Assembly (NCBI GenBank): GCA_947492745.1
Contig: CANLOE010000015.1
Coordinates: 1 to 64,000, forward strand
Direction of reading: 5' to 3'
DNA from: an uncultured Cyclobacteriaceae bacterium
GTDB lineage: Bacteria; Bacteroidota; Bacteroidia; Cytophagales; Cyclobacteriaceae
DNA length: 64,000 bases
Each line of letters opens with the position of its first letter. Positions within the stretch are counted from its first letter, which is position 1. A program made the translations under genes and the position numbers. The notes beneath the pieces are model-generated. The model was not told the DNA's origin and searched no databases. It saw only the letters and a program-made list of their open reading frames with translations. Of the stretch, positions 1 through 23,713 are shown piece after piece.

Positions 1-1061
1 GAACCAGATTACTAGGAGTTCCAATCGTTGTAGATCGCTGGCTTCAACAAGCGGTAAGTCAACAATTAGCAACCAAATTTGAACTTACGTTCGAAGACGA
101 AAGCTACGGTTTCAGACCGCAGAAGAACACTCAAAAGGCAGTGCAACAAAGCTTGAAACACATCAATGATGGCTATCAAGATATTGTTGATATTGACTTG
201 AAAGGCTTTTTCGATGAAGTGCAACACTACAAACTCCTTCAACTGATCTACGACAAAGTAAAATGCCCTACAACCTTGTGGCTCATCCGAAAGTGGCTAC
301 GTGCTCCGATCCTTATCGAAGGAAAATTGCACAAACGCCGCAAAGGAGTACCACAGGGAAGCCCTTTAAGCCCGCTATTGTCGAACATTATGCTCGACCA
401 ATTGGACAAATACCTCAAAAATGAAGGTTGCAGATTCGTTCGCTATGCCGACGACTTTAGTATTTATACCAAGTCCAAAGCAGCAGCCAAGAAGATCGGA
501 AACAAGGTTTTTCTTTTCTTAAAAGACAAACTCGATTTACCAATCAACAAAGCTAAAAGCGGAATTCGTAGACCGATAGATTTTGAAGTATTAGGTCATG
601 GTTTTACACCGACCTATAAGAAGGGAGAAAAGGGCAAATACCAACTCGTAGCGAAGAAAGGAAGTTGGGACAACCTGAAACGAAAGCTCAAGTTTATAAC
701 CAAAAAGACCTTGCCTTACAGTCTGGAAGAACGAAACCGTAAACTCAACGAAGTAATAAGAGGATGGGTCAATAACTTTCGACTTGGAAGCATTCAAACC
801 AAGCTCAAAAAGCTAGACGAGTGGTTACGCAATCGTTTAAGATACTGCATCTGGCATGACTGGAAAAAGCTTGATCGGAAACGTAAAAACCTAATCCGTT
901 TAGGAGTGGAACAAGGTATGGCTTATGCTTGGAGTCGAACGAGAATGGGAGGCTGGGCAGTTGCCCAAAGTCCTATTTTACGAACGACCATCACCGAAAT
1001 TCGCCTAAAGAAGAGAGGGTACATGAGTATGATGGACTACTACCTAAAAGTGACGGTCTGA
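1..1061 (+). CDS. ltrA: Group II intron reverse transcriptase/maturase, 5'-truncated by window edge
   Basis: The frame is open from base 3, so the N-terminus lies outside the window; the apparent GTG at 141 is internal. The visible part has the RT fingers (a GVPIVVDRWLQQAV-like stretch, then SYGFRP), the second catalytic aspartate (DIDLKGFFDEV), the QGSPLSPLLSN motif and the YADDF active site. It ends in a maturase X domain with RGWVNNF and the GYMSMMDYYLKV tail. No HNH endonuclase domain follows, so it is an endonuclease-less type. The protein splices its host intron and copies it into DNA during retrohoming. It is the ORF of the intron whose 3' RNA domains lie just downstream. Identification is firm; intron class is not resolved. 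Confidence 0.95.
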   Translation, partial: TRLLGVPIVVDRWLQQAVSQQLATKFELTFEDESYGFRPQKNTQKAVQQSLKHINDGYQDIVDIDLKGFFDEVQHYKLLQLIYDKVKCPTTLWLIRKWLRAPILIEGKLHKRRKGVPQGSPLSPLLSNIMLDQLDKYLKNEGCRFVRYADDFSIYTKSKAAAKKIGNKVFLFLKDKLDLPINKAKSGIRRPIDFEVLGHGFTPTYKKGEKGKYQLVAKKGSWDNLKRKLKFITKKTLPYSLEERNRKLNEVIRGWVNNFRLGSIQTKLKKLDEWLRNRLRYCIWHDWKKLDRKRKNLIRLGVEQGMAYAWSRTRMGGWAVAQSPILRTTITEIRLKKRGYMSMMDYYLKVTV

Positions 1062-1150
1062 TTTAATGAACCGCCGTATACGAGACCCGTACGTACGGTG
1101 GTGTGAGAGGCGAACTCTAGCTCATTCAGGGCTAGAGCCGTCTACTCGAT
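1062..1150 (+). ncRNA. 3' end of a group II intron (domains V and VI)
   Basis: Directly after the RT stop codon is a domain V-like hairpin (about 1068-1105; arms ACCGCCGTA and TACGGTGGT around a short GAGAC-type loop). A second hairpin of domain VI type follows (about 1110-1140; arms CTCTAGC and GCTAGAG). The segment ends in CTACTCGAT, a typical bacterial group II intron 3' terminus. I place the 3' splice site at about 1150. The exon downstream is the stop codon of the gene on the opposite strand, so the intron sits immediately 3' of that gene. Confidence 0.8.
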
Positions 1151-4100
1151 TATGTGCTTTTATTTGTTCTATCGTCATTTGATTTTAAATCAAACAATGA
1201 CATATCAATATAATATTTAAAACTTTCAAATAGCTGACTAAATTCAATATCTACATCAAAGTTGTCAATTAGTTTTGGGATATTGCCAGGTAAATAATAC
1301 AATGAACAATATGAATTTATGCTTCTTACTTTACCTAAAATTGCATTATATAGTATCTTTTGTATATTGTCAACTACCGAATTTCGTTCAAATAATTCGT
1401 AAATATCCAAATCTGTAAATACAGAATACCAGCCATCTGCAAAACCTGCGACTTCATGACTTTTCAACTTATTCTTTAAAATGAAACCCTTATCCTCAAT
1501 TGTCAAAATACCTTGATTAAAATGCTCTTGACTATTTGTTTTGTATTTATTCTCTTCTTCTGTATATTCTTTAATCTCAATTTTTTGTAAAAGCAACCAG
1601 TCTTTGAATGTATGGTTCTTTGGAATTCGAACTTTATACTTCCATAGGTTTAATACATATTTCAATTCCTCTAACCTGTTAGATTTTAGAACGTTCTCAA
1701 GTTCCTTAAATTCAATTTCTTTATTAGTGCGATGATAGGATAATCTATTTTTTAACTCGTTTTGAAAAATGATATCAGGAAAAACATTTATATAATCTGG
1801 TGGTAAATCTAACCATTGAACCAGTAAATCTTTAAAATCAAAATTCTTGTGCAGAAATTCAATTATCCCAACAGAATGTTGCTGTATATAATCATTGAAC
1901 AGGTACCTGTGTCCTTTCTCCGAAATGTCTTGTATCGATTTTATTAATTTGCAAGAGTCTTCAACTTCTATAAAATTCTTGTTTTCAAATGTTTTTAATG
2001 CTGTTCCAATAGTTAAAAACGAATAATCCTTTCGGTTGTAATACTTTGTCCAAAACATCGAAATACTTGAAAAATCAATTTTCCGTTGTTGATGAACTGA
2101 TAGCCTAATATAGTTGTGTATTTCGTCACGTAAATCAAAACTACCTAAATGTTTGTTTTTAAGTATGAAATCATTTAGACTTAGGTTTATGTAATCATTT
2201 GTACTGCTCTCGTTTCCTAATCCCAAAATATTCTGTTTAGCAGACTTTAAAACACCATAGGAATAATATTCAGGTAATTGGTTTTCAAGAAGAAATTCAT
2301 TAAGTAGCGCAAAGGAGTTTTTCTTGTTACTAATTTCTGCATTTATAGCTTTATATAACTTTGCATATTTTACGTAATCTAAATTGTGGATGTATATATT
2401 AGCCAATATAATAGGCAAATATCTCATTACATCATTTTTTTGCTCGAAAATTTCATTCAATTTATGCTCCGTGATAGGCTTTTCATGCAATGCGAAATAC
2501 CTCGTTTCTTCTTCAATTTCATCTTCTAACTGCTCAATAAAATGTTCAGTATCGTAATAATCATTACTCGTGGCATTGAAAAGCAATGTTGCATCATTAG
2601 TTTTCAAATAGTAAAGCATTGCAAAAAGATATTTTGAACTTGTTATATCTTCCTCTGTGTAATCGTTAAAGAGTAATGCTTTTAGAAATGTATATTGAAA
2701 TGAATTTATTGTTGAAACATGGTCTTTACTTATCAAGTTGATAATAAGCGATAAATCATAGAAATTGATTGTTTTAAAATCATCAGCTTCAAAATGTTCT
2801 AATTCTTCTCGTATTTGAGTATAAAAACTTTGTATAGCTTCAAAATCAACAACACTATGCATTAATTCTTTGAAAGACTGAATTACAGTGAACTTCGATA
2901 CAATTTTACATTTTTGTTCGAGAGAAAGACTAAAACTGTTGAAACGAGATAAAAATCTTTTCTCAGAAGACATTATTGATATGAAAACCAACTCATTGAT
3001 TTTGTTTTGTCTTTGCGAAAAATTGATATTTTGTTTTCGTAAATAAGTTGTAAAACTGTCATGAAAAAGCGAAATTCTATTTAATCGGATTTCAAAAAGA
3101 TATGGATGTTCATCAATAAATTCATATACAAGTTCTGCTAGTTCATCGCCTAATAACATGCTTATTTCTGATTTCATAAAATATGCACGAGAACAAAGAA
3201 ATAACGAAAGGGAGGATTTTACTTTTGTATTTATTAGTATTTGTTCATAATAGCCATCTAATTCTGTTATTTTATTTAACTCTGGTAAAATAGCAGTCTT
3301 TTTAAAATGTTCTGCTACATATTTTACAATAATTGGATAACCATCAGTAATATCAAATATTGAAGTTCTAGTTTTATAATCAGTTATATGAAACAATTCT
3401 TCTAAAACTCTCTCTGTTTGGTGTCTATTCCAATTTGTAAGTTGCTGCTTCTTCCAACCTAACTCATTTTCAATTGGTCGGCATAAAACAATAACTTTAC
3501 AGACTTCTTTTAATCGGTCTATAAATGTAACGAATTGCTTAAATTCTGATGGATTGTAATTCTTGACATGGTCAAGACCATCAATAATTAGTGCATGCTT
3601 GTTTCGTTTTATTTGGTTAATTATTTCATTTTCATCTCTGTGGCGAATATCATGGAACAACTTTTTTGAAAGGTCAAATAAGAATTTTTGAAATTTAAGT
3701 CTGTCTTCTTTATCGTAGTCTTGTTCATGAAGCCAAAATCTATAAAGTAGATTGTTGGGAAATTTCCCTTGTAAAAATTCGACTAAATGGCTTTTACCTA
3801 TACCTGGTTTTCCCTCAATATGCAAAATGTTTTCAAATTCAATTATTTCTCTCTCAATATTAATTGTATCAATAAGTTTTGTATTAAAAATATCAATGAC
3901 AGGCAATTCATTTTTTTGAATTATCCATTTTCTACTATCTAAATAGTTACTGAGAAATTTCTGAATTACAGACTTTCGGAATGGATTTAGCTCGTAAAAA
4001 CTGGCTAATATTTCATCAATCTCTACTCTGTTAAGTGAAATCAAATACAAATCAGACATTTTAAATGCTGAAAATCCTAATATTTCACAATTTGGCGCAA

Positions 4101-4395
4101 TATCTATCTGATTAAAGAAAATGATATTAGTATTACTTGAAAGTTTATGTGGCTTATTATCTATAAATATTTCATTTTCTATCACATTTAGTTTTTCAAG
4201 TTTAACCCCTGAAATGTCTTTTATTTGAATTTGATATGTGTCTTTATTGTTGTTGATTACTAAATCGTCAAATTTGTCATCAGTTTTGGCTTCAATTTGG
4301 ATAACATCAATTTCACGTTCAATGTCCATTTTTGATAAAAACAGTTCTGTTACGTGATTTTGATATGTGTATCCTATGTATCCGCCTTTACTCAT
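1150..4395 (-). CDS. AVAST/NLR-like defence protein: Cap4-type nuclease fused to P-loop NTPase
   Basis: A 1081-residue protein. Residues ~1-120 look like a PD-(D/E)xK nuclease of the Cap4/DUF4297 type, with E17, D43/D44 and a Q57-x-K59 core. Residues ~180-400 form a STAND/NACHT-like NTPase with Walker A GKPGIGKS (195-202) and Walker B ALIIDGLDH (268-276). The remaining ~600 residues are helical and without clear motifs, as expected for a sensor or TPR-like region. This layout resembles Avs antiphage proteins, in which ligand binding triggers oligomerisation and DNA cleavage. Its DNA is clearly more AT-rich than the cas genes and housekeeping genes around it, which suggests separate acquisition. 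A group II intron is inserted at its 3' end and a broken integrase lies upstream. The architecture is visible in the sequence; the defence role and the trigger are inferred. Confidence 0.75.
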   Translation of the reverse strand: MSKGGYIGYTYQNHVTELFLSKMDIEREIDVIQIEAKTDDKFDDLVINNNKDTYQIQIKDISGVKLEKLNVIENEIFIDNKPHKLSSNTNIIFFNQIDIAPNCEILGFSAFKMSDLYLISLNRVEIDEILASFYELNPFRKSVIQKFLSNYLDSRKWIIQKNELPVIDIFNTKLIDTINIEREIIEFENILHIEGKPGIGKSHLVEFLQGKFPNNLLYRFWLHEQDYDKEDRLKFQKFLFDLSKKLFHDIRHRDENEIINQIKRNKHALIIDGLDHVKNYNPSEFKQFVTFIDRLKEVCKVIVLCRPIENELGWKKQQLTNWNRHQTERVLEELFHITDYKTRTSIFDITDGYPIIVKYVAEHFKKTAILPELNKITELDGYYEQILINTKVKSSLSLFLCSRAYFMKSEISMLLGDELAELVYEFIDEHPYLFEIRLNRISLFHDSFTTYLRKQNINFSQRQNKINELVFISIMSSEKRFLSRFNSFSLSLEQKCKIVSKFTVIQSFKELMHSVVDFEAIQSFYTQIREELEHFEADDFKTINFYDLSLIINLISKDHVSTINSFQYTFLKALLFNDYTEEDITSSKYLFAMLYYLKTNDATLLFNATSNDYYDTEHFIEQLEDEIEEETRYFALHEKPITEHKLNEIFEQKNDVMRYLPIILANIYIHNLDYVKYAKLYKAINAEISNKKNSFALLNEFLLENQLPEYYSYGVLKSAKQNILGLGNESSTNDYINLSLNDFILKNKHLGSFDLRDEIHNYIRLSVHQQRKIDFSSISMFWTKYYNRKDYSFLTIGTALKTFENKNFIEVEDSCKLIKSIQDISEKGHRYLFNDYIQQHSVGIIEFLHKNFDFKDLLVQWLDLPPDYINVFPDIIFQNELKNRLSYHRTNKEIEFKELENVLKSNRLEELKYVLNLWKYKVRIPKNHTFKDWLLLQKIEIKEYTEEENKYKTNSQEHFNQGILTIEDKGFILKNKLKSHEVAGFADGWYSVFTDLDIYELFERNSVVDNIQKILYNAILGKVRSINSYCSLYYLPGNIPKLIDNFDVDIEFSQLFESFKYYIDMSLFDLKSNDDRTNKST

Positions 4396-4485
4396 CTGTT
4401 TCCAAATTTGGTATGTTCTTGGTCTTTAATTGCACATAACAATTGGATATGTGCAACGTTGCACCTATTTCCTATATATTTTTAA

Positions 4486-5097
4486 CTAATCTAAGGGATT
4501 TTTTATGCCTTTAAAAGTACTGATGGCCACATGGGTATAAATTTCTGTTGTTTTACTTGAACTATGCCCCAATAATGCCTGAGCATACCTCAGGTCGACA
4601 CCTGATTCCAGCAAGTGTGCGGCAAAACTGTGCCTGAGCATATGTGGTGCTGCTTTTTTTATTTGCCCCTGCCTTTTTTGCTGCCTTACTTACAATTTTT
4701 TGAACACTTTGTGGGCGAATAGGGCTTACCTTCCGGGGATTCGAACAGATAGTGTTGAGGGCGGTCTTTTTTGCCTTTTCCTTGCCTGATGGTGATGGCC
4801 ATCCTTTGGCTATCGATGTCCTTGATGGTCAGGTTGATCAACTCCCACTTCCTCAAACCCGCTGAGTATAAAAGTGACAAGATGCATTTATGTTTTAAAT
4901 TGGCCACATGGTCAATCATGGCCAACACGCTGCCCTTGTCCCAATAGCTGCAGGTACGCCCTGATTTCCTGCTCCGAAATATGCATCAGGTCTTTGATTT
5001 CCCTGTAATGATTGAGGAAGCCCTCGAAACAGTTCACGCAAACCTTGGCAGTATTATACTCAGGAAAAAGTGAAATGGGAAATTCGGGGTCGGGCAA
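4486..5097 (-). pseudogene. Broken tyrosine recombinase (XerC/D-like integrase)
   Basis: Fragments of one integrase lie in different frames. An N-terminal piece (4912-5097) reads NHYREIKDLMHISEQEIRAY, like a SAM-like core-binding domain. A middle piece (4686-4928) carries the first catalytic Arg region (LLYSAGLRKWELINL) and a GKGKKDR turn. A C-terminal piece (4486 to ~4650) has [30 protein letters not shown] and then a stop. The R...HxxR...H...Y signature is thus complete but split by frameshifts, and part of the N-terminal domain appears deleted. It is probably a dead integrase from a past mobile element. The piece at 5045-5097 overlaps the left inverted repeat. Confidence 0.85.
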
Positions 5098-5222
5098 AAA
5101 GGGGAAAAATTCTGCATTGGTAAAATTACATTAGTGGATTGTACATTAGGGTCGTTCCGGACGGAACAGTACTTTCGCAATGATCTTCAATCTGTCCTGG
5201 AACAATTGCGTTTGTGTATAAA
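5052..5222 (+). repeat. Left copy of ~170-bp inverted repeat flanking the cas/HEPN island
   Basis: Apart from small indels this segment aligns over its whole length with the reverse complement of 14119-14289. Shared blocks include ACTCAGGAAAAAGTGAAAT, ATTAGTGGATTGTACATT, AGGGTCGTTCCGG, GCAATGATCTTC and CAATTGCGTTTG. The two copies face each other across ~9 kb holding cas6-cas7, the DUF262-HEPN pair and a truncated lipoprotein gene. Short related pieces of the inner end occur near 29246-29276 and 52460-52490, so the sequence belongs to a dispersed family. Confidence 0.85.
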
Positions 5223-5565
5223 TATATTTGCGGGATATTCAAGAGCACAATGGAATCACCGCAGCTTAAGCATCGATACACTGGCAAGTTCTATACGAAT
5301 GACCTACTCACCGGAACTTTTTGGGCGAACAGAACTATTTGCGAGCCTGAAAAATTGGGCAGACTTTAACAATACCGTTCTATTTAATCAATAGCCCTTA
5401 TTGACAGAGGAACCTATGGCAGAAACCTATCCAATAGAAGAAATCCGATATAAGGTAGAAATCCCCACCTTCGGAAACCGTAAGCGGTCTTTGGGAAAGT
5501 ATTGTCCCCATTGGGAAGACTTATTGCTACTTTGATAGCATAACGACCAAAAGATACTATACCAC
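5223..5565. other. Gap before cas6 with small open fragments only
   Basis: No recognisable gene. One forward frame (about 5252-5370) reads KHRYTGKFYTNDLLTG and looks protein-like, but it is short and stops. A 39-codon ORF (5416-5535, starting MAETYPIEEIRYKVEIP) is also open. Both may be remnants of a gene lost when the island was rearranged. No CRISPR repeats are present here. Confidence 0.4.
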
Positions 5566-6366
5566 ATGCGTTTTCAGATCATATTCTCACTTCTGCCAGA
5601 AGATAACCGACTACCTATAGGTTATCAGTATTATATCAGTAGCTGGATTTACAGTCGTATCAAAGCTTCCGATGAAAACTACGCCCGTTTTCTCCACGAC
5701 GAAGGATTTGGTGAAGGGCCTCATAAATTCAAGCTCTTCAATTTTGGCCCTTTGGACCTAAGACCCTATCGGGCAGACTGGGACAGTGGTCATTTCGAAC
5801 TTCTGGGACAGGAAATCAGGCTTACGGTCAGTTTTTCACTTTCGGAAATGGCCCAACACTTTGTGAAGGGGGTATATGAAGAGGATACCTTTTTCATCGG
5901 CACACCGGATAGGAACATCGCCCTGAAAGTAAGCGAAATCCGACTGCTCCCACAGCCGGAATACCAAGGGACCATGAGCTATCGGACCGTGGCCCCCTGT
6001 TGTATCAGCCGCCCGGCGCGCGGTACGGAATCCTATGGGCAGTACCTTCCTCCAAGCGATGCGGAGTTCGTGCCAAGACTGATCAAAAACCTGAAGAAGA
6101 GATACCTTGCTGCACAGTGCATCCCCAGTGGCGAAGATTTCGATGGCGAAGACGAGAACATAGAGGTGGATATCCAGCTCTTGGGGAAAGTACCCAAATC
6201 CAAGCTGATCGAAATCAGGACAGATGCTTCAAAGTCGATAAAGGTGCGGGGCTGGCAATTCGACTGTAAAGTAATCGCAGCAGTGGAGATACAACAGTTC
6301 ATATGGAGGGCCGGGCTAGGGGAGAAAGGGAGCATGGGTTTCGGTATGGTCGAAGTCCTGCACTAG
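5566..6366 (+). CDS. cas6: CRISPR pre-crRNA endoribonuclease Cas6
   Basis: A 266-residue protein of usual Cas6 length. The N-terminus has the ferredoxin-like start with LPIGYQYYISSWIYSRI, the position where Cas6 proteins carry a conserved aromatic/serine helix. The C-terminus ends in the glycine-rich loop GLGEKGSMGFGMVEV (about 250-264), the RAMP hallmark. Cas6 cuts the CRISPR transcript within each repeat to release crRNAs. It is the first gene of the operon; 109 bp separate it from cas5. There is no array in the window, so its substrate must be encoded elsewhere or be lost. Recognition is good; the subtype is not fixed. Confidence 0.88.
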   Translation: MRFQIIFSLLPEDNRLPIGYQYYISSWIYSRIKASDENYARFLHDEGFGEGPHKFKLFNFGPLDLRPYRADWDSGHFELLGQEIRLTVSFSLSEMAQHFVKGVYEEDTFFIGTPDRNIALKVSEIRLLPQPEYQGTMSYRTVAPCCISRPARGTESYGQYLPPSDAEFVPRLIKNLKKRYLAAQCIPSGEDFDGEDENIEVDIQLLGKVPKSKLIEIRTDASKSIKVRGWQFDCKVIAAVEIQQFIWRAGLGEKGSMGFGMVEVLH

Positions 6367-6475
6367 GTACTGCCACTACATCGCGTGCCGATACCCCTTA
6401 TGGAAATGAATGCAGGTAGGCAGATAGTACATCCTGCACCATGACTTTATCTCACTCCAACTATACCACAACTCC

Positions 6476-7060
6476 ATGAAATACCACATTGTCAGCTATA
6501 CAGGTCCCTTTGGTTTCATCAAACCTTGGACGGCCGTGAGGGACAGCGAGACCTTCAGTCAACAGTTCCTGACCCCCTCTATCGTAGAGGGTATTGAAAA
6601 GAAGCAATTTCCTGAACTACTGAAAACAAAGGGCATCCGGAAGATCGTAGGGCATCGTTTGGCCTATGATCAGGTATCGGGACAGCAGGAAGTCATACAG
6701 ACAAGAGGTTGGAACAGCACCCGCAAAGGCCCGAACTTCCTTTTTGACCGCCCCAAGGCCATTTTGATTCGTGGTATACTGCTCAACCCGGTGCTGCACC
6801 TTGCCTACACCTCCGAAGAGGATGCTTCGATAGCTTTCGGGCAACACCTCTGCCTGTGCAGAAATGAGGATATCCTACTGCCACGGGAAACCATCGCGAC
6901 CACCAAAGATGCCTTTGAAAACGACGAAATGCTTTTTCCCGGTTATGAACTGGTCTTTGAAAAGAACGAAAAATCCTTTCTTGTCGGTTATCATCGGCTG
7001 ACCGGGGAGGCCATGTACGGCTATATCAGAGTGGTGGGCCAACCTGTAACCGCTTACTGA
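6476..7060 (+). CDS. cas5: Probable Cas5 (RAMP subunit of type I effector)
   Basis: A 194-residue protein starting with a short beta strand and the segment GPFGFIKPWTAVRD, which fits the N-terminal RAMP strand/loop of Cas5 proteins (a GxFAxFRxP-like position). LTPSIVEGIEKKQFPELL follows. Cas5 caps the 5' handle of the crRNA in Cascade. Size and position beside cas3 and cas7 support the call. Its stop codon overlaps the cas3 start (TGATGG at 7058-7063), implying translational coupling. The assignment rests mostly on context plus the N-terminal motif, so it is less certain than Cas3 or Cas7. Confidence 0.7.
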   Translation: MKYHIVSYTGPFGFIKPWTAVRDSETFSQQFLTPSIVEGIEKKQFPELLKTKGIRKIVGHRLAYDQVSGQQEVIQTRGWNSTRKGPNFLFDRPKAILIRGILLNPVLHLAYTSEEDASIAFGQHLCLCRNEDILLPRETIATTKDAFENDEMLFPGYELVFEKNEKSFLVGYHRLTGEAMYGYIRVVGQPVTAY

Positions 7061-9213
7061 TGGAAACCCTTTTCGCTAAATCGGCCCCCGAATGGACCCC
7101 TTTGAAGGAGCATCTGATACAAGTGGCCAGTGCTGCCACAGCATTTGCCGACTATTTGAAGATGGACCGCGAAATCGCCCATAACGGTGCACTGCTCCAT
7201 GATATCGGCAAGGCCCACCCCCGTTTTCAGCAGCGGTTGAGAGGGAAAGACAACAGTGGTATCGTATTCCGCCATGAGATCAGCTCCCTGCTGTTCCTAT
7301 CGGTTTTCCCCGAAGAGCAGCGCGGCCCATTACTGGAAACGGTCGTGGGCCATCATAAATCCGTTCGTAATGACGCGGGTGATAAAGGACTGCTCGACCT
7401 GGAGGAAGGTTATGACTATCAGGATTTCCATATCGGTGATTGGGATGCCTGGAGTCCGGCAGCCTTTGCGCTGTTCCATGAACTGGGTGTACCCTCTGTT
7501 GCCCCGTTTGACAAAACGGTGGCAGGGAAAAATCTGGTGTGGGCCGTCCGTTATTGTAGGAAAAAGGTCAGGGAGCGGGGCTATTCGGAGTGGCGCGGGC
7601 TGCTGATGGGTGCCGACCATTTTGCATCGGCTCTCATCGGTAGGACAGAAAGCCAGCTGGAGAGGGCGTTCAGAAAGCCCGACCTCGGTTTCTACGACCG
7701 TCGGCACGAACTGTACCCATTGTCCTACAGGGCGGCTAGCTCTTCGAAGAGGCACAGTCTGGTAGTGGCCTGCACGGGAGCGGGAAAGACGGATTTCCTC
7801 TTTCGCCGGACACGGGGCAGGGTATTCTACACATTGCCCTTTCAGGCCTCCATCAATGCGATGTACCATCGTGTCAGCAGAGACCTGGAAAAGAGCAATC
7901 CCGGTCTGGACATTCGGGTACTGCATGCCTCTTCCAGTGTGGTCAGGCGAAAGAAAGAAGCGGAAGAAGCCGTACTACAGCCCCTGTTCGGTTCCTCCAT
8001 AAAGATACTGACCCCGCACCAGCTGGCGGCCATCGCTTTCGGGCTGAAAGGCTATGAGGCATTGCTGCTCGACCTCAAAGGTTGCGATATCATATTGGAC
8101 GAGATCCATACCTATTCGGGTATATCCCAGGCCATAGTGCTGAAACTGGTCCAGGTACTACAGTCCCTCCACTGCCGAATACACATCGGCACGGCCACCA
8201 TGCCCTCCGAGCTCTACCGCAGGATCCTGGACCTGCTGGGTCGGGAAAGTATACTGGAGGTAAAACTTTCGGATGAGGAAATGGACGGCTTCGATCGTCA
8301 TCGTGTACATAAACTCGCCTCGTTCGAGGAAGCCTATCCGCTCATCGATGAAGCTATGGACGGTGGGGAAAAGGTGCTACTGGTCTGTAACCGTGTGGCG
8401 AAGGCACAGGAAATCCATCGTTCAATGCGGGAGCGATATCCCCACATCGATATACTGTTGCTGCACAGCCGCTTCAAGCGCGGGGATAGAAATGAAAAGG
8501 AAAAAGAACTCCTAGGGCTGGACGTACAGGGTCGGCCCTTGGGCCGGTACAATACGGGCGATGGAGCCTGTATTGTCGTATCGACACAGATTGTGGAAGT
8601 GAGCTTGGACATCAGCTTTGACAGGATGGTCACCGAATGCGCGCCGATAGATGCTTTGGTACAGCGTTTTGGCCGTATCAACCGCAAACGTTCGCAGGAT
8701 AGGCCCAAAGAGCTCCGCCCCGTCCATGTCATAGCCCCGCCCAGCTGCGAAAAGGAGGCCTTGCCCTATGACCTGGAGGTACTGAACAGGTCCTTTGCAG
8801 TACTGCCCGATGGGAACGTACTGAGGGAAAGAGATCTTCAGGAGTACATCGACACTGTATTTCCGAGTATTGATTTTATGAAGATAGAGGAGCATTCCGT
8901 ATTCAAATCGGATGGCAGTATCCGCATCGATAAACTGACCCACCGCAGCAGATCCATACTGTTCGAGCTACTGGATATCGACTCGGTAGTCTGTATCACG
9001 GAGAGCGATGAGGCGCGCTATGCGGAATCCCATTTCGAAGATCGGCTCAACCTGGAGATTCCCGTACGGTACTTCAGTGTGCGGGAAATGCGGCAATCCG
9101 ATAAGGGACATCGCCCTTTCATCATACCCGACGGAGCCTACAGCAGGATACTGGGCCTAGAGATAGGCCTCATCGACAAATCGAAGTTTGACACTAATCT
9201 ACAGTTCTTATGA
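7060..9213 (+). CDS. cas3: CRISPR-associated nuclease-helicase Cas3 (HD + SF2 helicase)
   Basis: 717 residues with both Cas3 domains. The HD nuclease has H18, H47-D48 (LLHDIGKAH), H72 and H98-H99. The SF2 helicase has Walker A TGAGKT (239-244), DEIH (347-350), TAT (378-380), the STQIVEVSLDISFD segment (508-521) and motif VI QRFGRINR (535-542). No catalytic motif is missing. Cas3 is recruited by the target-bound Cascade and degrades the displaced strand. It overlaps cas5 by one base and cas8 by four (ATGA at 9210-9213), so the five genes form one operon. Its place in the middle, between cas5 and cas8, is unusual. Confidence 0.96.
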   Translation: METLFAKSAPEWTPLKEHLIQVASAATAFADYLKMDREIAHNGALLHDIGKAHPRFQQRLRGKDNSGIVFRHEISSLLFLSVFPEEQRGPLLETVVGHHKSVRNDAGDKGLLDLEEGYDYQDFHIGDWDAWSPAAFALFHELGVPSVAPFDKTVAGKNLVWAVRYCRKKVRERGYSEWRGLLMGADHFASALIGRTESQLERAFRKPDLGFYDRRHELYPLSYRAASSSKRHSLVVACTGAGKTDFLFRRTRGRVFYTLPFQASINAMYHRVSRDLEKSNPGLDIRVLHASSSVVRRKKEAEEAVLQPLFGSSIKILTPHQLAAIAFGLKGYEALLLDLKGCDIILDEIHTYSGISQAIVLKLVQVLQSLHCRIHIGTATMPSELYRRILDLLGRESILEVKLSDEEMDGFDRHRVHKLASFEEAYPLIDEAMDGGEKVLLVCNRVAKAQEIHRSMRERYPHIDILLLHSRFKRGDRNEKEKELLGLDVQGRPLGRYNTGDGACIVVSTQIVEVSLDISFDRMVTECAPIDALVQRFGRINRKRSQDRPKELRPVHVIAPPSCEKEALPYDLEVLNRSFAVLPDGNVLRERDLQEYIDTVFPSIDFMKIEEHSVFKSDGSIRIDKLTHRSRSILFELLDIDSVVCITESDEARYAESHFEDRLNLEIPVRYFSVREMRQSDKGHRPFIIPDGAYSRILGLEIGLIDKSKFDTNLQFL

Positions 9214-10541
9214 TCACATCCGTTATTGGAAGAACCTTTCTGACCGCATATAATGAAAAGTACGACAAAAACCTTTCGGCAAAAGCGTTTTTCGAAGAAG
9301 AATACTGGCCACTCTTTTACAATGCACCCAAGTACTTACAGTGGGTGACGAACTCTCCCTTTGTACAGATGAAGCGGGGACAAAAGGCCCACCTGCTCAG
9401 CGAAACCGAAAGACTCGGAAAATTGGAGGCCCTCTACGAAAAAGTAGATGAAGAAATTCCCGATGCCAGTTTTGCGCTGGGTTTTCCGGCTTCCGAAACA
9501 AAAGGATATGCGAGTACTTCGGGTCTGGTAAGTGATATGGATATCCCCACGGAAGAAGAAGATGTGTACCTCTCCTGGATGGGCAGCGGTCTGGGCATAG
9601 GCGTGGCGGGTGGCTTTACCATCCTCTTCGATGACCCTTATATAACACTACGGACTTTTGAGGGCTGGAAAGTCTATCGGCAGTACCTCAACGATCCCAG
9701 TCTGGAAAGGATGCGGGGCAACCAGATCAATACCTGGAACGGCCAGTGGCTTACCTATGACATGGACCCCTATCGGTTTCGGGAGGACTTTGATTTTGCC
9801 ACGCTAGTGGAGGAGGGGTTTTTCAAAGTGGACAGCACTACGGTAGAAGCGCTCACCCTGAACTGGTCGCAGCTGTTTTTCAGCCTTTCCCGGCAGTTTC
9901 CCGAGACCGAGATGATGGGCTATGTCTATGGCTTCGGACAGACGAACAAGACCATAGGCTTCATCCCTTTTCAGTTCCGGTCGGGCAGTACGCTCAAGGA
10001 GGTATACCGAAAGCTCATCGACAAAGAGATGTTCGGGGACTTTAAAGTGGATAAGCAGGATTTCGAGCGGCTCTTTGGCATACATATCAAAAGGGCCTGT
10101 GAGCTGGGAAGCATCGGCCTTCCCGCACTCCGCCCCCATAACCTGACCAAATACATGAGGGACAAAAAGAACCTTTCCTTCAACAAAGAAGAAGACATCA
10201 TCCATTATCAAGCATACAAAACCTGGTTAATAGCTATGTTATCAAAAAACAAAGAAGAAATCATCGATTACACCATGGCCCTGGCCAAGGTCATACAACG
10301 TTACCGGGCCGGTGCCAGAAAGACGGACCGCAAAAACCTGATAGAGAAGGAACTCTTTGCCTCGGTCAGTAAAAGGGGCTTCATCGAAGCTTTGGAGCAA
10401 ATGGTCAAAGACCTTGACGGGGAAGACCTGCCGGCCATCAAACAGCTAAAGGACGAAGTACATCTCATGACCAATGAAGAGTACGGGTACTTCTGTACCC
10501 TACTGAAATTCGATTATGCCTTTGTGGAAAAACAGGCATAA
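9210..10541 (+). CDS. Putative Cas8-like large subunit of type I effector
   Basis: A 443-residue protein with no motif I can assign with certainty. It overlaps the cas3 stop and precedes cas7, the place where the Cascade large subunit is expected. The N-terminal half contains a glycine-rich hydrophobic stretch (SGLGIGVAGGFTILFDDPY); the C-terminal ~150 residues are helical, with basic segments such as RYRAGARKTDRKNL, compatible with a fused small-subunit-like bundle. Cas8 proteins recognise the PAM and diverge strongly between subtypes, so lack of recognisable similarity is normal. Its size is short to average for Cas8. The call is by context and could hide an unlisted variant. Confidence 0.6.
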   Translation: MITSVIGRTFLTAYNEKYDKNLSAKAFFEEEYWPLFYNAPKYLQWVTNSPFVQMKRGQKAHLLSETERLGKLEALYEKVDEEIPDASFALGFPASETKGYASTSGLVSDMDIPTEEEDVYLSWMGSGLGIGVAGGFTILFDDPYITLRTFEGWKVYRQYLNDPSLERMRGNQINTWNGQWLTYDMDPYRFREDFDFATLVEEGFFKVDSTTVEALTLNWSQLFFSLSRQFPETEMMGYVYGFGQTNKTIGFIPFQFRSGSTLKEVYRKLIDKEMFGDFKVDKQDFERLFGIHIKRACELGSIGLPALRPHNLTKYMRDKKNLSFNKEEDIIHYQAYKTWLIAMLSKNKEEIIDYTMALAKVIQRYRAGARKTDRKNLIEKELFASVSKRGFIEALEQMVKDLDGEDLPAIKQLKDEVHLMTNEEYGYFCTLLKFDYAFVEKQA

Positions 10542-10615
10542 GTAAATACGCTCTCCAAAGTTTATCATGGATATAATATCCGCACACTCATTCAAAACCC
10601 TAAAATTACTCCAAT

Positions 10616-11683
10616 ATGAATACTATCTATCTGAGAACCCTCAAAAGGGCAGAGCATACGGTCTTCAATGTATCCGATGGGCAGAAGTACTACTACGACA
10701 ACCAGTTCGGCAAGAGGATACCCTTCTCCAGTGGCCAGCAGGTGAAACGTTCCCTCATCGATAGCCTTTGCGAGGCCATCGACCAGACCCCATCCCCGAC
10801 GACCTTCCTGTTCGATGTCAATAAGCAAAAGGAACTCAAGGAAGGGGAGGTCTATGCTACCTGTGACCCATCCTATGCCGATCAATTGTTCGGCGGCTGG
10901 ATGAAAGCGGCCAAAGGCGGGAAGGACCGGACGCTGAAGCGAAGGAGTCCCCTGTCCATCTCCGCCATGCGCGCACTGCACCCACTTTTGGCCGGTCTGG
11001 ATTCGGAGAATGCTTCCTTCGACCGCAGTGACCGGTCCAATAACAGGGTCATCATCCGGGATGAAAATGGAAACGCACTCGACGAGGATGAGATTGCGGC
11101 ACTCCTTCAAGGGAAAGACAGGAGTATCAGCAGAAAGTGGATACCCGACAATAGGAGGACCACGGGGCTGTTCGTGCTGGATATCGCCATCGACCTTAGA
11201 AGGCTCTTTTCGGTGAGCCTGAATTCCTTTGAACCCGAAATGGCCGATAGCACTATCGAAAAGCTGAAAGAGGAAGGATGGATACCCTCTGAAAATGTGT
11301 TCGGCCCCAGTCTGGTCGCTCCCGAGCCCTTGCGCAAGGAATGGATAACAGGACTGGCCCATGCGCTCATTCACTGGCGCATAACTTCCAACCAGTCACG
11401 TACCTTCAGCCTCATGGATACCCTGGCCATCGCCATCAGCGACAATGCCAACCGTATTGCCGGAAGTATACGTGCAAAACTCTCCGAGGAGGATTCCAGA
11501 AAGGCCGACCCCATCATCGATGAAAATCTGAAAGGAGTGGAGACCTTCATCACCCTACAGGCAGGAGGCTTTATCCACACCAAGGGAGAAGTTGCCGATG
11601 CGCTGGAAAAGGCCGAGCAGCACCTTATTGAGCTCATGAGTGCCTACGATTACGAACAGCAAAAGGTCCCGGTGACGGGGTGA
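10616..11683 (+). CDS. cas7: CRISPR backbone protein Cas7
   Basis: A 355-residue protein with the Cas7/DevR-type N-terminus, including the RIPFSSGQQVKRSLIDSL segment where Cas7 proteins carry the conserved R-x-P-x-SG-x-S turn. The middle region PLSISAMRALHPLL and RTTGLFVLDIAIDL fit the Cas7 thumb and RRM strands. Cas7 polymerises along the crRNA spacer to form the Cascade backbone. It begins 74 bp after cas8 and is the last cas gene. No adaptation genes follow; next come a tiny ORF and a family C repeat. Confidence 0.88.
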   Translation: MNTIYLRTLKRAEHTVFNVSDGQKYYYDNQFGKRIPFSSGQQVKRSLIDSLCEAIDQTPSPTTFLFDVNKQKELKEGEVYATCDPSYADQLFGGWMKAAKGGKDRTLKRRSPLSISAMRALHPLLAGLDSENASFDRSDRSNNRVIIRDENGNALDEDEIAALLQGKDRSISRKWIPDNRRTTGLFVLDIAIDLRRLFSVSLNSFEPEMADSTIEKLKEEGWIPSENVFGPSLVAPEPLRKEWITGLAHALIHWRITSNQSRTFSLMDTLAIAISDNANRIAGSIRAKLSEEDSRKADPIIDENLKGVETFITLQAGGFIHTKGEVADALEKAEQHLIELMSAYDYEQQKVPVTG

Positions 11684-11713
11684 CGATACCGATTGCAGGG
11701 TCCTGTCCAAGTA

Positions 11714-11830
11714 ATGGATATGATTCGTACCAACTCCGAAAGGGAAATCACCTGTCCCTACATAGGTTGGAAAATCATTGATCTTCCAGAAGATCAAAGG
11801 GCCAAATGGATGTTTGGTCCTTTACCTTAA
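11714..11830 (+). CDS. 38-codon ORF after cas7, unknown, possible fragment
   Basis: An open frame of 38 codons with protein-like composition (ITCPYIGWKIIDLPEDQ...WMFGPLP) starts 30 bases after the cas7 stop. I do not recognise it. It could be a genuine small protein, the remnant of a larger cas-linked gene, or chance. Confidence 0.25.
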   Translation: MDMIRTNSEREITCPYIGWKIIDLPEDQRAKWMFGPLP

Positions 11831-11866
11831 TATTCTAATGGGATATTGTGTTGTAAATAATTGATT

Positions 11867-12041
11867 TTAACCCAAATTGATTAATAGGATTTTGTGGTGA
11901 GGGCATAATTTCAATAGAATCAGTTGTTTAGGAAAGGAGGCTTAGTGCATCACTAAGGTGACGAGCCTGCGCAGCGTAAAACAGCTGATTTTGAAGCAAT
12001 TTATGCTCGTAATAGGAAGACTATTGATCAATTTGGGTTAA
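11867..12041. repeat. Family C inverted-repeat element (copy 1)
   Basis: About 175 bp with imperfect terminal inverted repeats: TTAACCCAAATTGATTAATAG at one end and CTATTGATCAATTTGGGTTAA at the other. It shares its ends and internal blocks (TGCGCAGCGTAAAAC, AAGCAATTTATGCTCG) with copies at 32234-32411 and 54961-55129. It lies 19 bp upstream of the DUF262 start, so it may mark an insertion boundary or supply upstream signals. Confidence 0.75.
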
Positions 12042-12059
12042 AAAAGCATAGAACTAAAT

Positions 12060-13190
12060 ATGGAACAAGAACACATAGAAGAGATTAAAGAAGAGATAAA
12101 CGACTCATACTCAAATGACGATTTATACAACATTAATTCTTGGGGTGCTGACTTATCCTTTAGAGAATTAATTACAATGTATGATGAGGACGAACTCTTA
12201 AAACCTGAACTTCAAAGATATTATGTCTGGGACAAACCTGAGGCAAGTCGATTTATTGAATCCATTCTTTTGGGACTTCCAGTACCAAGTATTTTTTTGG
12301 CGAATACTAAAGATGATAAGAAGCTAATTATTGATGGCTATCAAAGAATTATGACTGTATTCGACTATGTAAAAAAAGGGGTTTGGCGAAAAGATGGAAA
12401 AACCTTCAAACTATCGAACACAGATAAAATTAATGAACGCTACAGAGGTAAGGCATACTCTGAATTACCAGAACAAGACCAAAGGCGTATAAGAAGTACT
12501 ACAATACACGCTATAGTATTTGAGCAAAAAGCTCCCAATGACAATGACACAAGTTTGTATCAAGTCTTTGAACGAATAAATACAGGAGGAAGAGCATTAA
12601 TGCCTCAAGAGATAAGAAACTGTGTGAATCAAGGTGGCTTTAATGATTTACTATTTGAACTAAATGAGAACTCTAATTGGAGAACTCTTTTTGGAAAAAA
12701 TGAGGTTGATCCAAGAATGAGAGATATGGAATTTATTCTGAGGTTTCTTGCCATAGATACTGACTTCGTTAAGAAAAATGAATCGTATAATATTTCATTG
12801 AAAAAGTATCTAAATGAGTTTATGGGTAATAATAAATCGCAAAATCCAGAAATAATTGAAGAGCGCGGAAATAAATTCAATTATGTGATGCAGTTCATTA
12901 TTGAAAACATTGGTGAAAACGCATTTTACAACATAACAGGAGGAGACGACACCAAAATCAGAAAAAGATTCTATCCAACAATTTTTGATTCAATTTGTCC
13001 CGCAGTTGCCATTGCCTACAGGCATTTTGGAGATGACATTCCTACGGAAAACTTGGAGGTAAAAAGACTAGCACTTCTTAAGGATGAGACATACAGGACT
13101 TACATTTCTGAAGGTACAATGCAAATCGCTCACATTCATGGACGAATTAACAAGGCTTTAAAATATTTATTCGGGATAAGCTATGAATAA
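12060..13190 (+). CDS. DUF262 (GmrSD N-terminal-like / ParB-type nuclease) protein
   Basis: 376 residues. The DUF262 core is clear: LQRYYVWDKPEASRFIESIL (51-70), LGLPVPSIFLA and the DGQQR-type motif as IDGYQR (91-96). DUF262 domains are ParB/Srx-fold and in GmrSD proteins provide NTP-dependent activity against modified phage DNA. No DUF1524/HNH domain is present; the C-terminal half is helical (VAIAYRHFGDDIP near the end). The last 8 bases overlap the HEPN gene, so the two are translated together. The DNA is AT-rich compared with cas. I infer a two-gene defence or toxin-antitoxin unit with the HEPN partner. Confidence 0.85.
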   Translation: MEQEHIEEIKEEINDSYSNDDLYNINSWGADLSFRELITMYDEDELLKPELQRYYVWDKPEASRFIESILLGLPVPSIFLANTKDDKKLIIDGYQRIMTVFDYVKKGVWRKDGKTFKLSNTDKINERYRGKAYSELPEQDQRRIRSTTIHAIVFEQKAPNDNDTSLYQVFERINTGGRALMPQEIRNCVNQGGFNDLLFELNENSNWRTLFGKNEVDPRMRDMEFILRFLAIDTDFVKKNESYNISLKKYLNEFMGNNKSQNPEIIEERGNKFNYVMQFIIENIGENAFYNITGGDDTKIRKRFYPTIFDSICPAVAIAYRHFGDDIPTENLEVKRLALLKDETYRTYISEGTMQIAHIHGRINKALKYLFGISYE

Positions 13191-13674
13191 CAGTAACGCG
13201 CAACAAAGTATTGATGTATGCACTGATGAACTTCAAAGAATATTTCATTTAATTGAAGGACTTGGACGTACGTCTCCTATCGTTCCATTTTTAACGAACT
13301 ACTCTATTGTAAGAGCATGTGGGACAATTGAATTCAGTTTTAAAACAATTATTTCCGATTTGCATTCTGGACATTCTCCACAAGTACAGAACTATGTTGA
13401 CAATACAATAAGAAACAGTTCTATGAATCCAAGCAGGGACAATATCTGCAAAACGTTGAAGAGGTTTGACGAAGATTGGAATAGAGCGTTTAAACATAAG
13501 TTTAATGAACATGAGCATTCCGAAAGACTAAAAGACTCTATTGATTCACTTAATAATGCAAGGAACTCGTTTGCACATGGAGACTCGCCTTCCTCCTCTT
13601 TTGAGGATATTAGAAGCTATTTCACCGACTGTGTATTAATTATGAACATGCTGGATGAAGTAGTAAATGAATAA
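13183..13674 (+). CDS. HEPN-domain putative RNase, partner of DUF262 protein
   Basis: A 163-residue, mostly helical protein. Near the C-terminus it has the HEPN catalytic signature RNSFAH (R127-x4-H132) followed by GDSP, as in the RiboL-PSP-HEPN type. HEPN RNases cut tRNA or mRNA and are common toxins in defence pairs. The start lies inside the end of the DUF262 gene (8-bp overlap), a strong sign of coupling. The gene's 3' end runs into the truncated lipoprotein gene on the other strand. RNase activity is inferred from the motif. Confidence 0.8.
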   Translation: MNNSNAQQSIDVCTDELQRIFHLIEGLGRTSPIVPFLTNYSIVRACGTIEFSFKTIISDLHSGHSPQVQNYVDNTIRNSSMNPSRDNICKTLKRFDEDWNRAFKHKFNEHEHSERLKDSIDSLNNARNSFAHGDSPSSSFEDIRSYFTDCVLIMNMLDEVVNE

Positions 13675-13719
13675 AATCTGTACCCTACAAAACCTATAAG
13701 CAATAGTGTCCTATAGAGC

Positions 13720-14081
13720 TGGTGTGTGGGTCCTCCTACTTTGCTCCAACTCAGACCAAAGTCATCATACTCGTATACACCATCCCTTCGGGGCGATAGC
13801 CCATACAGCTTTCCATCGGCCCAGACCCAATCGGCACCTGACCCCCCGATTTTGGACCAGTTATTTGGAGAACCATTGTAGCGGAAAATACTGCTCTTGT
13901 TGGGGCTTACACCAAAAATATTACCGACGGTTGTCCTGAGTATATCTGTAGTGTTTACCCGATTATCCCCTCCGATACGGGAGGTTTCGGAAATTGCTCG
14001 AATGTCAATATTTTCCTTTTCGCATGAGATAAGCCCAAATAGGAGCAGGAAGTGTGATAAGACTACTGTTAGTTGTTTCAT
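13720..14081 (-). pseudogene. Truncated lipoprotein with beta-propeller-like repeats
   Basis: Starts with a lipoprotein signal (hydrophobic segment, then LISCEK lipobox). A repeat-like sequence follows (VGNIFGVSPNKSSIFRYNG, NWSKIGGSG, LYGLSPRRDGVYEYDD, WSKVGG), reminiscent of tectonin/propeller blades. After about two blades the similarity pattern ends and the frame continues into antisense HEPN sequence until a stop at 13617. The gene was therefore probably cut by arrival of the DUF262-HEPN unit or by a deletion. The right inverted repeat lies in its upstream region, ending 38 bp before the ATG. Confidence 0.65.
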
Positions 14082-14118
14082 CGTTATGGGATTTTTTTCT
14101 AAAAATGAACTGACTCAT

Positions 14119-14289
14119 ATTATACTCAAACGCAATTGTGTTGGGACAGATCGAAGATCATTGCATAAGCACTGTTCCGCCCGGAACGACCCTAATGTAC
14201 AATCCACTAATGACTGTTCTACCATTGCAGGATCTTCCCTTGGTTTGCCAAACCCCGGATTTCCCATTTCACTTTTTCCTGAGTATAAA
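14119..14289 (-). repeat. Right copy of ~170-bp inverted repeat flanking the cas/HEPN island
   Basis: Reverse-complement partner of 5052-5222 (shared blocks are given at that entry). The copies differ by scattered substitutions, so the duplication is not recent. On the minus strand this copy forms the upstream region of the truncated lipoprotein gene. Confidence 0.85.
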
Positions 14290-14844
14290 TATCATATACC
14301 CAATGTATTCTATGGGTTTGATGAACTTTGGAACAAAGTTTTCGATCTTCCATTATCCGAAGAAGAGTGATTCTATAAGATACCCTATTTGAAGGAAATA
14401 AGCGAAAAGGCCATATTATTATATATTGATCTGCTTTTTCCCAATTGGAATTGGAACCTGTGATATGGATGTCCATGAAGGTATAGAGAATTGTTTTGAT
14501 CTGACTTTCAGTTATTTGTCGATGTACATCTATTAATGTAAACTTAACTTTGAAATCCGAAATTTTTTTCGGACCAATCCTCGGTACGCACAACCCAGGG
14601 CGAATAATCATGGTTCAAAAAGTCGGGCCAAACCCCACAACGAAAAAGTCCATCATGGGGTTATCTGTTCGATTTCGATCGTTCGGAAGCGAAATTATGG
14701 ACAGTTTTCAGACAATCTTTAGTCTGCAAGCCGAGTAAACCCTCATTTTTTGGCCTTTTGGGATGATTTTCGTTTCTGGCATGGCCTTGGTATTAAGGAA
14801 GACAACACATTTTCAGAACTTCTTCGAATCAAAATTATAAAAAC
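14290..14844. other. Gene-free stretch between the island and the chromosomal block
   Basis: Short open frames exist on both strands (for example 14219-14611 minus), but none has recognisable motifs or a convincing ribosome binding site. I see no RNA gene. It may hold remnants of the region's former gene content. Confidence 0.4.
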
Positions 14845-15273
14845 ATGAAAAAATTCGCAGCAATCCAGAAATTCGCTTTAGTAGCTCTTCTAGCAATGAT
14901 TTTTGTCGGTGGTCCTTCACTTTCCTATGCAGGTAATCAGGACAAAGTATTGAAAAAAATCAGACAACAAGTAGAGAATGCAGGGCCCGACGACTGGGAA
15001 ACATTGGCCATGGCTGCTAAAAAGTGTATCCGAAAGAAAATCAATATGGAGGAGGCGCATGAGTGGCTGGACCGCTCGATAGCTATCAAAAAGAGTTCCA
15101 TGAACCTGGAAATTATGGGCGACTATTACCTGAAGAACAAGTTGCCCAGAAAAGCTGTGATATATTATCTGGAAAGTAAAAAGGTAGGAATGGAAACCAA
15201 TAAAGATTTTGATTACTATCACTTAGAGGAAAAAATCGCACAGGCAAGTGACTTACGCACATCACTGGGCTGA
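14845..15273 (+). CDS. Small secreted TPR/Sel1-like protein
   Basis: 142 residues with a clear signal peptide (basic start, hydrophobic core ALVALLAMIFVGG, cleavage after SYA). The mature part is helical, with two TPR-like units: DDWETLAMAAKKCIRKKIN and EEAHEWLDRSIAIKKS, then LEIMGDYYLKNKLPRKAVIYY. It is probably periplasmic and may bind another protein. It stands alone, followed by a hairpin terminator. Function unknown. Confidence 0.75.
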   Translation: MKKFAAIQKFALVALLAMIFVGGPSLSYAGNQDKVLKKIRQQVENAGPDDWETLAMAAKKCIRKKINMEEAHEWLDRSIAIKKSSMNLEIMGDYYLKNKLPRKAVIYYLESKKVGMETNKDFDYYHLEEKIAQASDLRTSLG

Positions 15274-15293
15274 TTTGCTCATGTCTATTCCGG

Positions 15294-15317
15294 TAAGCTG
15301 CTCTGGAGCAGCTTTTC
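15294..15317. terminator. Hairpin terminator
   Basis: AAGCTGCTC and the complementary GAGCAGCTT face each other across a short loop, followed by a short T run. It lies just after the small secreted protein and before the convergent end of menE. Confidence 0.6.
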
Positions 15318-15364
15318 CGGTAAGCGGCCGAAGGTACAAGGGAGACGATTGAGCCCTATTTCGG

Positions 15365-21996: not shown

Positions 21997-23713
21997 TCAG
22001 TCGAATTGTAGTCTCCAGATTTGCAATGCGGTTTTTGCCAATTGTTTTTGACGTTCATTGATACTATGTTCGTTCCATTCGTCATAGTTCAGGGCTATAT
22101 CTCGAGTGATGCCAAAGCTACTCGCGGCATAGGCCTCTTTTTTTCGTGAATACTCCACGGCTCCCAAGTCTCTATTGGTATTGACTCCGAGTAATGTTAG
22201 GTTTCCTAAGCGAAATACAGTGCGTTCCACTTCTTCATCGCTAAAATGCTCCCATCCGCTACTTGGGTTTTCCGGCAATATGTGCTCTACGGTGGAGGAG
22301 CTGCCAAATGGGTTGATATGGCTGCTGTGTAGGTGGTTCTCTATTCTCGTCAATAGATATTTCACTATTTTCTGGTTCTTGGAGGTTCTTTTGAAGGATT
22401 TGTTGGAAAAGGATGTCTCGAAAGCAGTATCAAGAGGGTAAATGTTTCTGAGCCAGTCCAAGCTGAACCTGGATTCTTTGGTAATCCTCAAAGCGGCAGC
22501 CGTATAGATCAAGTCCTGTTCATTCGGATTCAGTCCTCCGATACTATTGTACCGAAAAGAGATAATACTACAGGCTTTCAATACTTTTTTGAAAATAGTT
22601 TCGTCCAGTATTCTAAAGGCCGCCAATAACATCGAGAAAGGCTGTCTTACCTGAAACAAATTCAGTTCATGGAGAATAGTCACTGATTTCTTTTTTTCCG
22701 TTCCATAGCTCATCATCAGGGTTACGCAGCGCGATGTAGATGTCCGAGTCATCATCCAAAGCACGTAGAAGCGAAAAAGCACCTTCTTTAGAATGGATAC
22801 TTTTCCGTATTTCCTTGAAGAGATTACTTTTTCTGACACTGCCGTAGCGACTGTTCCAGAAGGTTTTGAGAAACCCGGGAAATTTTTCACTTCCCAACTT
22901 ACCTATGACCCTGCTCCATAACGATTCCATTTCTTGGATTTCTGAAGAGTGCGCACCAGTACTGTCCACCACGGAAAACAGGTAGTTTTTCAATAAATCC
23001 GCAGAGGACAGTTGAACCCCTCTGGCATTCAGTGTTTCGAATACCTTGAAGGCATTGATTTCATCACTGACGGTGATGACCGTAAAGAACATTTTATCAA
23101 CGATAAGATCGACCAGTCGAGCTAGGGATTCTCCCGTTTGGTAGTCGGCTTTTGTTTTGTCCCCAAACCATAAGAAGCATTTTTTCAACAATTTCTCAGA
23201 GGCGTTCAAGCCTCTACCCGGAAGTGTTCCTATGGGGACCAGTTTTTGACGATAGAAATCGTCGTTGTTTCTATTGAGTTTGATTTTATTTCTGGGAACA
23301 AGGGACACCGGATCCAAATATCCGATATAACTGTTCCTCAATGTGCTAGAGCGTATGGCATTTTTTTCGGGGTCGATACCCCGTTCGATGAGTCCTTTCA
23401 ACGTGTCGAGTACCGCCAGAATGAGGATGCTCAAGGTAATGAGACGTTGTTGCCCGTCGATGACCCGATATACTTTATTATCGGCAGTTTGAAGTACGAG
23501 ATAGCCCATATAGTGTACCACTTCTTCTTCCAGCTCCAATGCTTTGATATCCTGCCACAGATCGTCCCATTGCTCTATATCCCATGAATAATCCCTTTGA
23601 AATTTGGGGATTTCATAGGTCAGGCCATTGCCCAATAGTTTTCGGAAAGTCTCACTGGAAGTATCTTGGATGCCCGTCATAAGCGTAGTAGGTAGGTATT
23701 GTTCAACTTTCAA
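21997..23713 (-). pseudogene. GmrSD-like DUF262/DUF1524 gene split by a one-base slip
   Basis: The 5' part (22667-23713) has the DUF262 core: IPKFQRDYSWDIEQWDDLW and YRVIDGQQRLITLSILILA. The 3' part (21997 to ~22700) has the DUF1524 HNH-like nuclease with STVEHILPENPSSGW and FRLGNLTLLGVNTNRDLG. The two frames join if one base is removed from the T7 tract at 22691-22697 (A7 on the coding strand), restoring LWNGKKKSVTILHELN. The full protein would be about 570 residues, usual for single-chain GmrSD type IV restriction enzymes acting on modified phage DNA. The break may be a real mutation, a slippage switch or an assembly error. Both halves look otherwise intact. Confidence 0.85.

Follow-up and report, generated by a model that had tools for sequence, protein, structure and literature searches.

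A rare nuclease-STAND gene with a variable sensor cassette in an uncultured Cyclobacteriaceae bacterium, a likely anti-phage receptor

The nuclease-STAND locus

The window analysed here is a stretch of 64,000 nucleotides from an uncultured Cyclobacteriaceae bacterium. According to the ORF listing of this 64-kb window, an intact frame of 1081 codons, the nuclease-STAND gene, lies near its start (Table 1). It is present as a single copy in the 7.1-Mb source genome, and the ATG start of the 1081-residue product agrees with the starts of its relatives. A group II intron runs towards the gene from the opposite strand; its 5' end is beyond the contig start and its 3' end falls inside the nuclease-STAND stop codon. 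Just upstream of the gene is a degenerate tyrosine recombinase, which points to a former boundary of a mobile element.

Past this remnant, type I-B cas genes were found in the order cas6-cas5-cas3-cas8b-cas7. We recognised no cas1, cas2 or cas4 directly downstream of them and no direct-repeat (CRISPR) array at 11500-15400. The pair of genes that follows encodes a GmrSD_N protein and a RiboL-PSP-HEPN protein, which matched PADLOC NsnA/PD-T4-2_A and, weakly, PD-T4-2_B, and together they make a candidate defence system of two genes. A 23-nt inverted repeat, 96% complementary, spans 179 bp in the interval from cas7 to the GmrSD_N gene and is either MITE-like or a large hairpin. Elsewhere in the window a GmrSD-type enzyme is split into two overlapping frames and is therefore probably frameshifted.

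Table 1. Positions of the nuclease-STAND gene, its parts and other features of the window
Feature	Position	Strand	Basis or remark
Group II intron	141..1150	+	RT/maturase 141-1061; D5/D6 (RF00029) 1069-1150
Intact nuclease-STAND gene, product of 1081 aa (Cap4-type nuclease, STAND NTPase, helical sensor)	1150..4395	-	ORF and full-length relatives
N-terminal nuclease domain, residues 1-165 (probable)	3901..4395	-	Core motif stretch 4219-4374; invariant core residues; hhalign to Cap4-STAND set
STAND/NACHT-type P-loop NTPase core, residues 183-310	3466..3849	-	Pfam sub-threshold; nSTAND3 in relatives; hhalign 98.8%
Walker A	3787..3816	-	Within NTPase core
Walker B	3568..3591	-	Conserved R306-P307 also within NTPase core
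Helical arm (GYP motif) and winged-helix region (HPYLF, HDS motifs), residues 311-463	3007..3465	-	hhalign reach to ~463; invariant residues
Presumed sensor, the helical C-terminal part (residues 464-1081)	1153..3006	-	AlphaFold2; short beta-containing part near residues 893-944
Variable cassette, residues 632-718	2242..2502	-	Identity step against Carboxylicivirga A043 allele
Degenerate tyrosine recombinase	4450..5100	-	Phage_integrase fragment 4686-4928
Type I-B cas genes	5566..11683	+	
Inverted repeat	11865..12043		
GmrSD_N and RiboL-PSP-HEPN genes	12060..13674	+	
GmrSD-type enzyme, two overlapping frames	21997..23713	-	GmrSD_N 22667-23713; GmrSD_C 21997-22890

Domain composition of the protein

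The sequence-only reading had proposed a tripartite plan of Cap4-type nuclease, STAND NTPase and large helical sensor, and both profile comparison and family-wide conservation backed it. The P-loop NTPase was borne out by a Walker A motif EGKPGIGKSH (residues 194-203) and a Walker B motif IIDGLDH (270-276). Across the family GKPGxGKSH, IIDGLDH, RP, GYP and HDS are invariant, including the arm and winged-helix residues G352-Y353-P354, H430-F434 and H445-S447. In Pfam, the matches of the window protein to AAA_22, NACHT and NPHP3_N were all sub-threshold (NACHT, 20.2 bits vs a curated cut-off of 26.7; AAA_22, 21 vs 27), and nSTAND3 was matched in five of six members (best 3.1e-5). For comparison by hhalign we used a Cap4-STAND set of 'ATP-binding proteins', namely L024 and plasmid proteins of Klebsiella, Pseudomonas, Cupriavidus, Moraxella and Roseibium (L030-L034). 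Their N-termini match the PADLOC Cap4-effector models SAVED_PDDEXK, Endonuclease and LmuA, and their NTPases mostly match Avs1b. Residues 184-463 aligned to this set at 98.8% probability with the GYP and HDS motifs included, which favours a STAND NTPase over an unrelated AAA protein. The order of parts, a P-loop followed by arm and winged helix between effector and sensor, is that of the STAND superfamily. A tblastn search with the viral-contig homologue L018 matched the Moraxella protein of the set at 2e-5 to 4e-5, and phmmer/hmmsearch of PDB sequences returned only P-loop chance matches.

At the N-terminus, every full-length member, even the one at 29-30% identity, retains G8-Y9-x-x-Q12, E35, D43-D44 and Q57-x-K59. 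The nuclease core had earlier been given as E17, D44 and QIK; D44 and Q57-I-K59 stood, whereas E17 was rejected as a catalytic residue, since the relatives have S, L or I there, whereas Q12 and E35 never vary. Apart from E17, conservation of the core extends to all full-length members. The N-terminal profile built from seven full-length members aligned over residues 1-64 to the Cap4-STAND set with a moderate hhalign probability of 66.8% (score 37.7), placing GYxYQ, E, DD and QxK in register between the two groups; reversed and 60 column-shuffled controls scored at best 18.4. That score, together with retention of the motifs at 29-30% identity, indicated that the motif set is not due to chance. 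Pfam's Cap4_nuclease was matched by a single member out of six, and there at no better than E 0.023. With E...DD...QxK after a GYxYQ helix, the N-terminal domain is probably, and more weakly than holds for the NTPase, a Cap4/DUF4297-type PD-(D/E)xK nuclease. In DUF4297-HerA, the DUF4297 domain is a dsDNA nuclease and superposes on the Cap4 domain of Avs3 (PMC11291478). An AlphaFold2 model of the full protein from four alignment rows had a pLDDT of 47.5 and was set aside.

The remaining ~620 C-terminal residues are helical and belong to no recognisable repeat family, in agreement with the earlier description of ~600 unassigned helical residues. AlphaFold2 modelling of residues 462-1081 with nine rows (pLDDT 79.9, pTM 0.74) gave an almost entirely helical structure with one short beta part, unreliable at residues ~577-616 (pLDDT under 50). 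Against the PDB and BFVD this model had no significant Foldseek match, which is no proof of a new fold, and no Avs chain was among the matches listed by Foldseek or VIA-align. The best VIA-align rows were short overlaps with HEAT/ARM-like solenoids, located in model residues 1-99 and, at Z 5.7, short of what the tool treats as informative, and DSR2 appeared among the structure matches at a non-significant E of 0.42. The sensor profile did not match the C-termini of the Cap4-STAND set (hhalign probability 0.1%). The sensor role is therefore assigned only by position, the region having no recognised fold.

The most interesting point of the nuclease-STAND gene is its swapped sensor cassette. One scan of species genomes revealed in Carboxylicivirga sp. 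A043 a partial copy, 82% identical and cut by the contig end. The two alleles are 100% identical at residues 586-615 and 92% at 740-1060, and only 41% identical over the 87 residues of 632-718. Compared with other members, too, this stretch of the window allele shows lower conservation (0.17-0.30) than the flank at 740-1060 (0.38-0.46); no such sharp identity step separates L003 and L008, which are a close pair. A sequencing or assembly artefact is unlikely, because neither allele's frame is interrupted and the segment can be aligned with the family. The simplest cause would be recombination with a diverged allele that replaced this segment locally. Judged from this one allele pair, the cassette is a candidate specificity module that may set the ligand.

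Relatives and their neighbourhoods

Five full-length relatives have 42-46% identity. Whole-genome searches placed three in one genus (L003, L007 and L008, 42-45%) and one in another class (L020, 46%), and the fifth lies in a viral contig (L018, 44%). Partial relatives were L021 and L004/L006. A second viral-contig relative, L019 (29-30%), lies where a Firmicutes-type prophage ends, immediately beyond two serine recombinases; reading from the neighbouring genes, its host was apparently a Firmicute. The search flagged one in-frame TAA for L007, which must lie outside the gene since the ORF listing gives a frame open over 1079 aa. True members occurred in three of 395 genomes of the phylum (the window's own, G174 and G023) and in none of 117 other genomes of the order. 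G252, L005, L016 and L017 were rejected as family members, being NTPase-only matches. With the window protein, L018 or L019 as query, tblastn detected no family members among phages and plasmids, and viral scans beyond L018 and L019 gave no new relatives. Such a rare and patchy distribution suggests horizontal spread.

Several relatives have defence genes as neighbours. L010 adjoins Gabija GajA/GajB and Upx, L011 adjoins Upx, and L009 adjoins a type IIG RM gene. The L018 relative lies directly between PDC-M65A/B (upstream) and PDC-S25 (downstream), in a run PDC-M65A - PDC-M65B - nuclease-STAND - PDC-S25 at 1222-9498, and starts 11 bp after PDC-M65B; it could be the third gene of the PDC-M65 candidate system in that element. 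L020 (G922) is found between glycosyltransferase-like and GDP-mannose-dehydratase-like genes, with no obvious defence island. By association, the neighbouring defence genes support a probable role of the family in defence.

In the Gabija island of L010, the relative is flanked by a 746-aa and a 761-aa protein (4424-6664 and 10005-12290). Neither has a PADLOC match, the 761-aa protein has a weak NERD nuclease match, and both are candidates for undescribed defence.

Known systems and the likely function

No family in PADLOC (E 0.1) or NCBIfam (E 1) matched the window protein. PADLOC on six members gave only MkoA and mad8, and a relation to Mokosh or MADS was rejected, as these matches fit the shared P-loop only. 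The protein had been described as AVAST-like, but membership in AVAST could not be shown: no Avs model in PADLOC or NCBIfam matched, in a comparison made with profile models, of which Avs1b alone proved to work on a control. We therefore do not file it as Avs, and no clear placement in a known Avs clade was found. CBASS membership was also rejected, there being no SAVED match in Pfam or PADLOC and the neighbours being an intron RT, an integrase remnant and cas genes.

STAND receptors, among them those with the Avs plan, have an effector, an NTPase and a sensor in common (PMC12931631). Avs1-Avs4 resemble the protein in an N-terminal nuclease (Cap4 in Avs3, PMC11291478), a central STAND NTPase and a large helical C-terminal sensor, with TerL, portal or Ksap1 as the triggers of their nucleases (PMC12931631). 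However, the nuclease-STAND sensor has no detectable sequence match and no significant structural match. The nSTAND3 NTPase, seen in most members here, occurs with C-terminal repeats in Avs5 (PMC12931631), which bears Sir2 whereas this family bears a nuclease. In the Cap4-STAND proteins the nuclease motif is in register and the NTPase and winged helix are alignable, whereas the C-termini do not match and tblastn with the window protein misses them at 1e-5. By description rather than sequence, the clade 6 proteins bNACHT25 and bNACHT32 have the same order of PD-(D/E)xK DNase, NACHT and helical C-terminus (PMC12169576); the window protein stays below the Pfam NACHT cut-off. CBASS Cap4 and DUF4297-HerA use a related nuclease type as effector (Cap4 and DUF4297, respectively), but next to the gene we saw neither a CD-NTase partner nor a HerA partner, and the protein has no SAVED domain.

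The family combines a three-part architecture and conserved nuclease and NTPase residues with a patchy spread and a link to defence genes and prophage-type elements. It is best read as a nuclease-STAND family that is genuine, conserved, rare and uncatalogued and that appears separate from Avs1-4. With a probable nuclease joined to an ATP switch, and a large helical detector that matches no catalogued immune family, it is in our view a rare new relative of known immune sensors, not a new kind of system. The protein is likely a single-protein anti-phage receptor working like Avs1-4 and the nuclease-bearing bNACHT proteins, and we infer the following course. The C-terminal helical region would bind, as trigger, either a product of the phage or a host product that the phage has altered; the STAND NTPase would then switch and oligomerise, driven by NTP; the N-terminal Cap4-type PD-(D/E)xK nucleases would thereby be brought together, and the joined nucleases would cut double-stranded DNA and abort the infection.

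The same machinery might instead act as a guard, watching a host process or a chaperone that infection disturbs, a possible and rather doubtful reading. bNACHT25, whose D48A substitution belongs to the literature on this mechanism class, has the same kind of parts, needs DnaJ and does not bind the coat protein directly (PMC12169576), which is consistent with such a role; the swapped sensor cassette, as indirect evidence, would better suit a receptor whose ligand varies. A narrower proposal is unlikely in its full form: a receptor family of its own, in which the exchangeable ~87-residue cassette, swapped between alleles by recombination, determines ligand specificity and the ligand is a phage product outside every Avs group. 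It is improbable that the protein is a restriction-type ATP-dependent nuclease, its C-terminal region recognising foreign or modified DNA directly with no role as an infection receptor. Nuclease and NTPase in one chain and the type IIG RM gene beside one relative would suit that reading, but the NTPase groups with STAND/NACHT modules, a winged helix and solenoid-like helices come after it, and Pfam finds no target-recognition, methyl-reader or DNA-translocase domain. Least probable is an inactive relic in the source genome: the D5/D6 match of the intron ends at 1150 within the stop codon and an integrase fragment (4686-4928) remains on the 5' side, but the ORF is intact with every invariant residue, and outside the cassette silent codon changes outnumber replacement changes between the window and A043 alleles.

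If the preferred receptor reading is correct and the family is defensive, it would add to the nuclease-STAND receptors a family absent from PADLOC 2.0 and NCBIfam, with members both in Bacteroidota and on prophage-type elements, of which one apparently belongs to Firmicutes. For receptors of this kind the seat of specificity is rarely known, and the swapped cassette would offer a concrete and cheap test of it.
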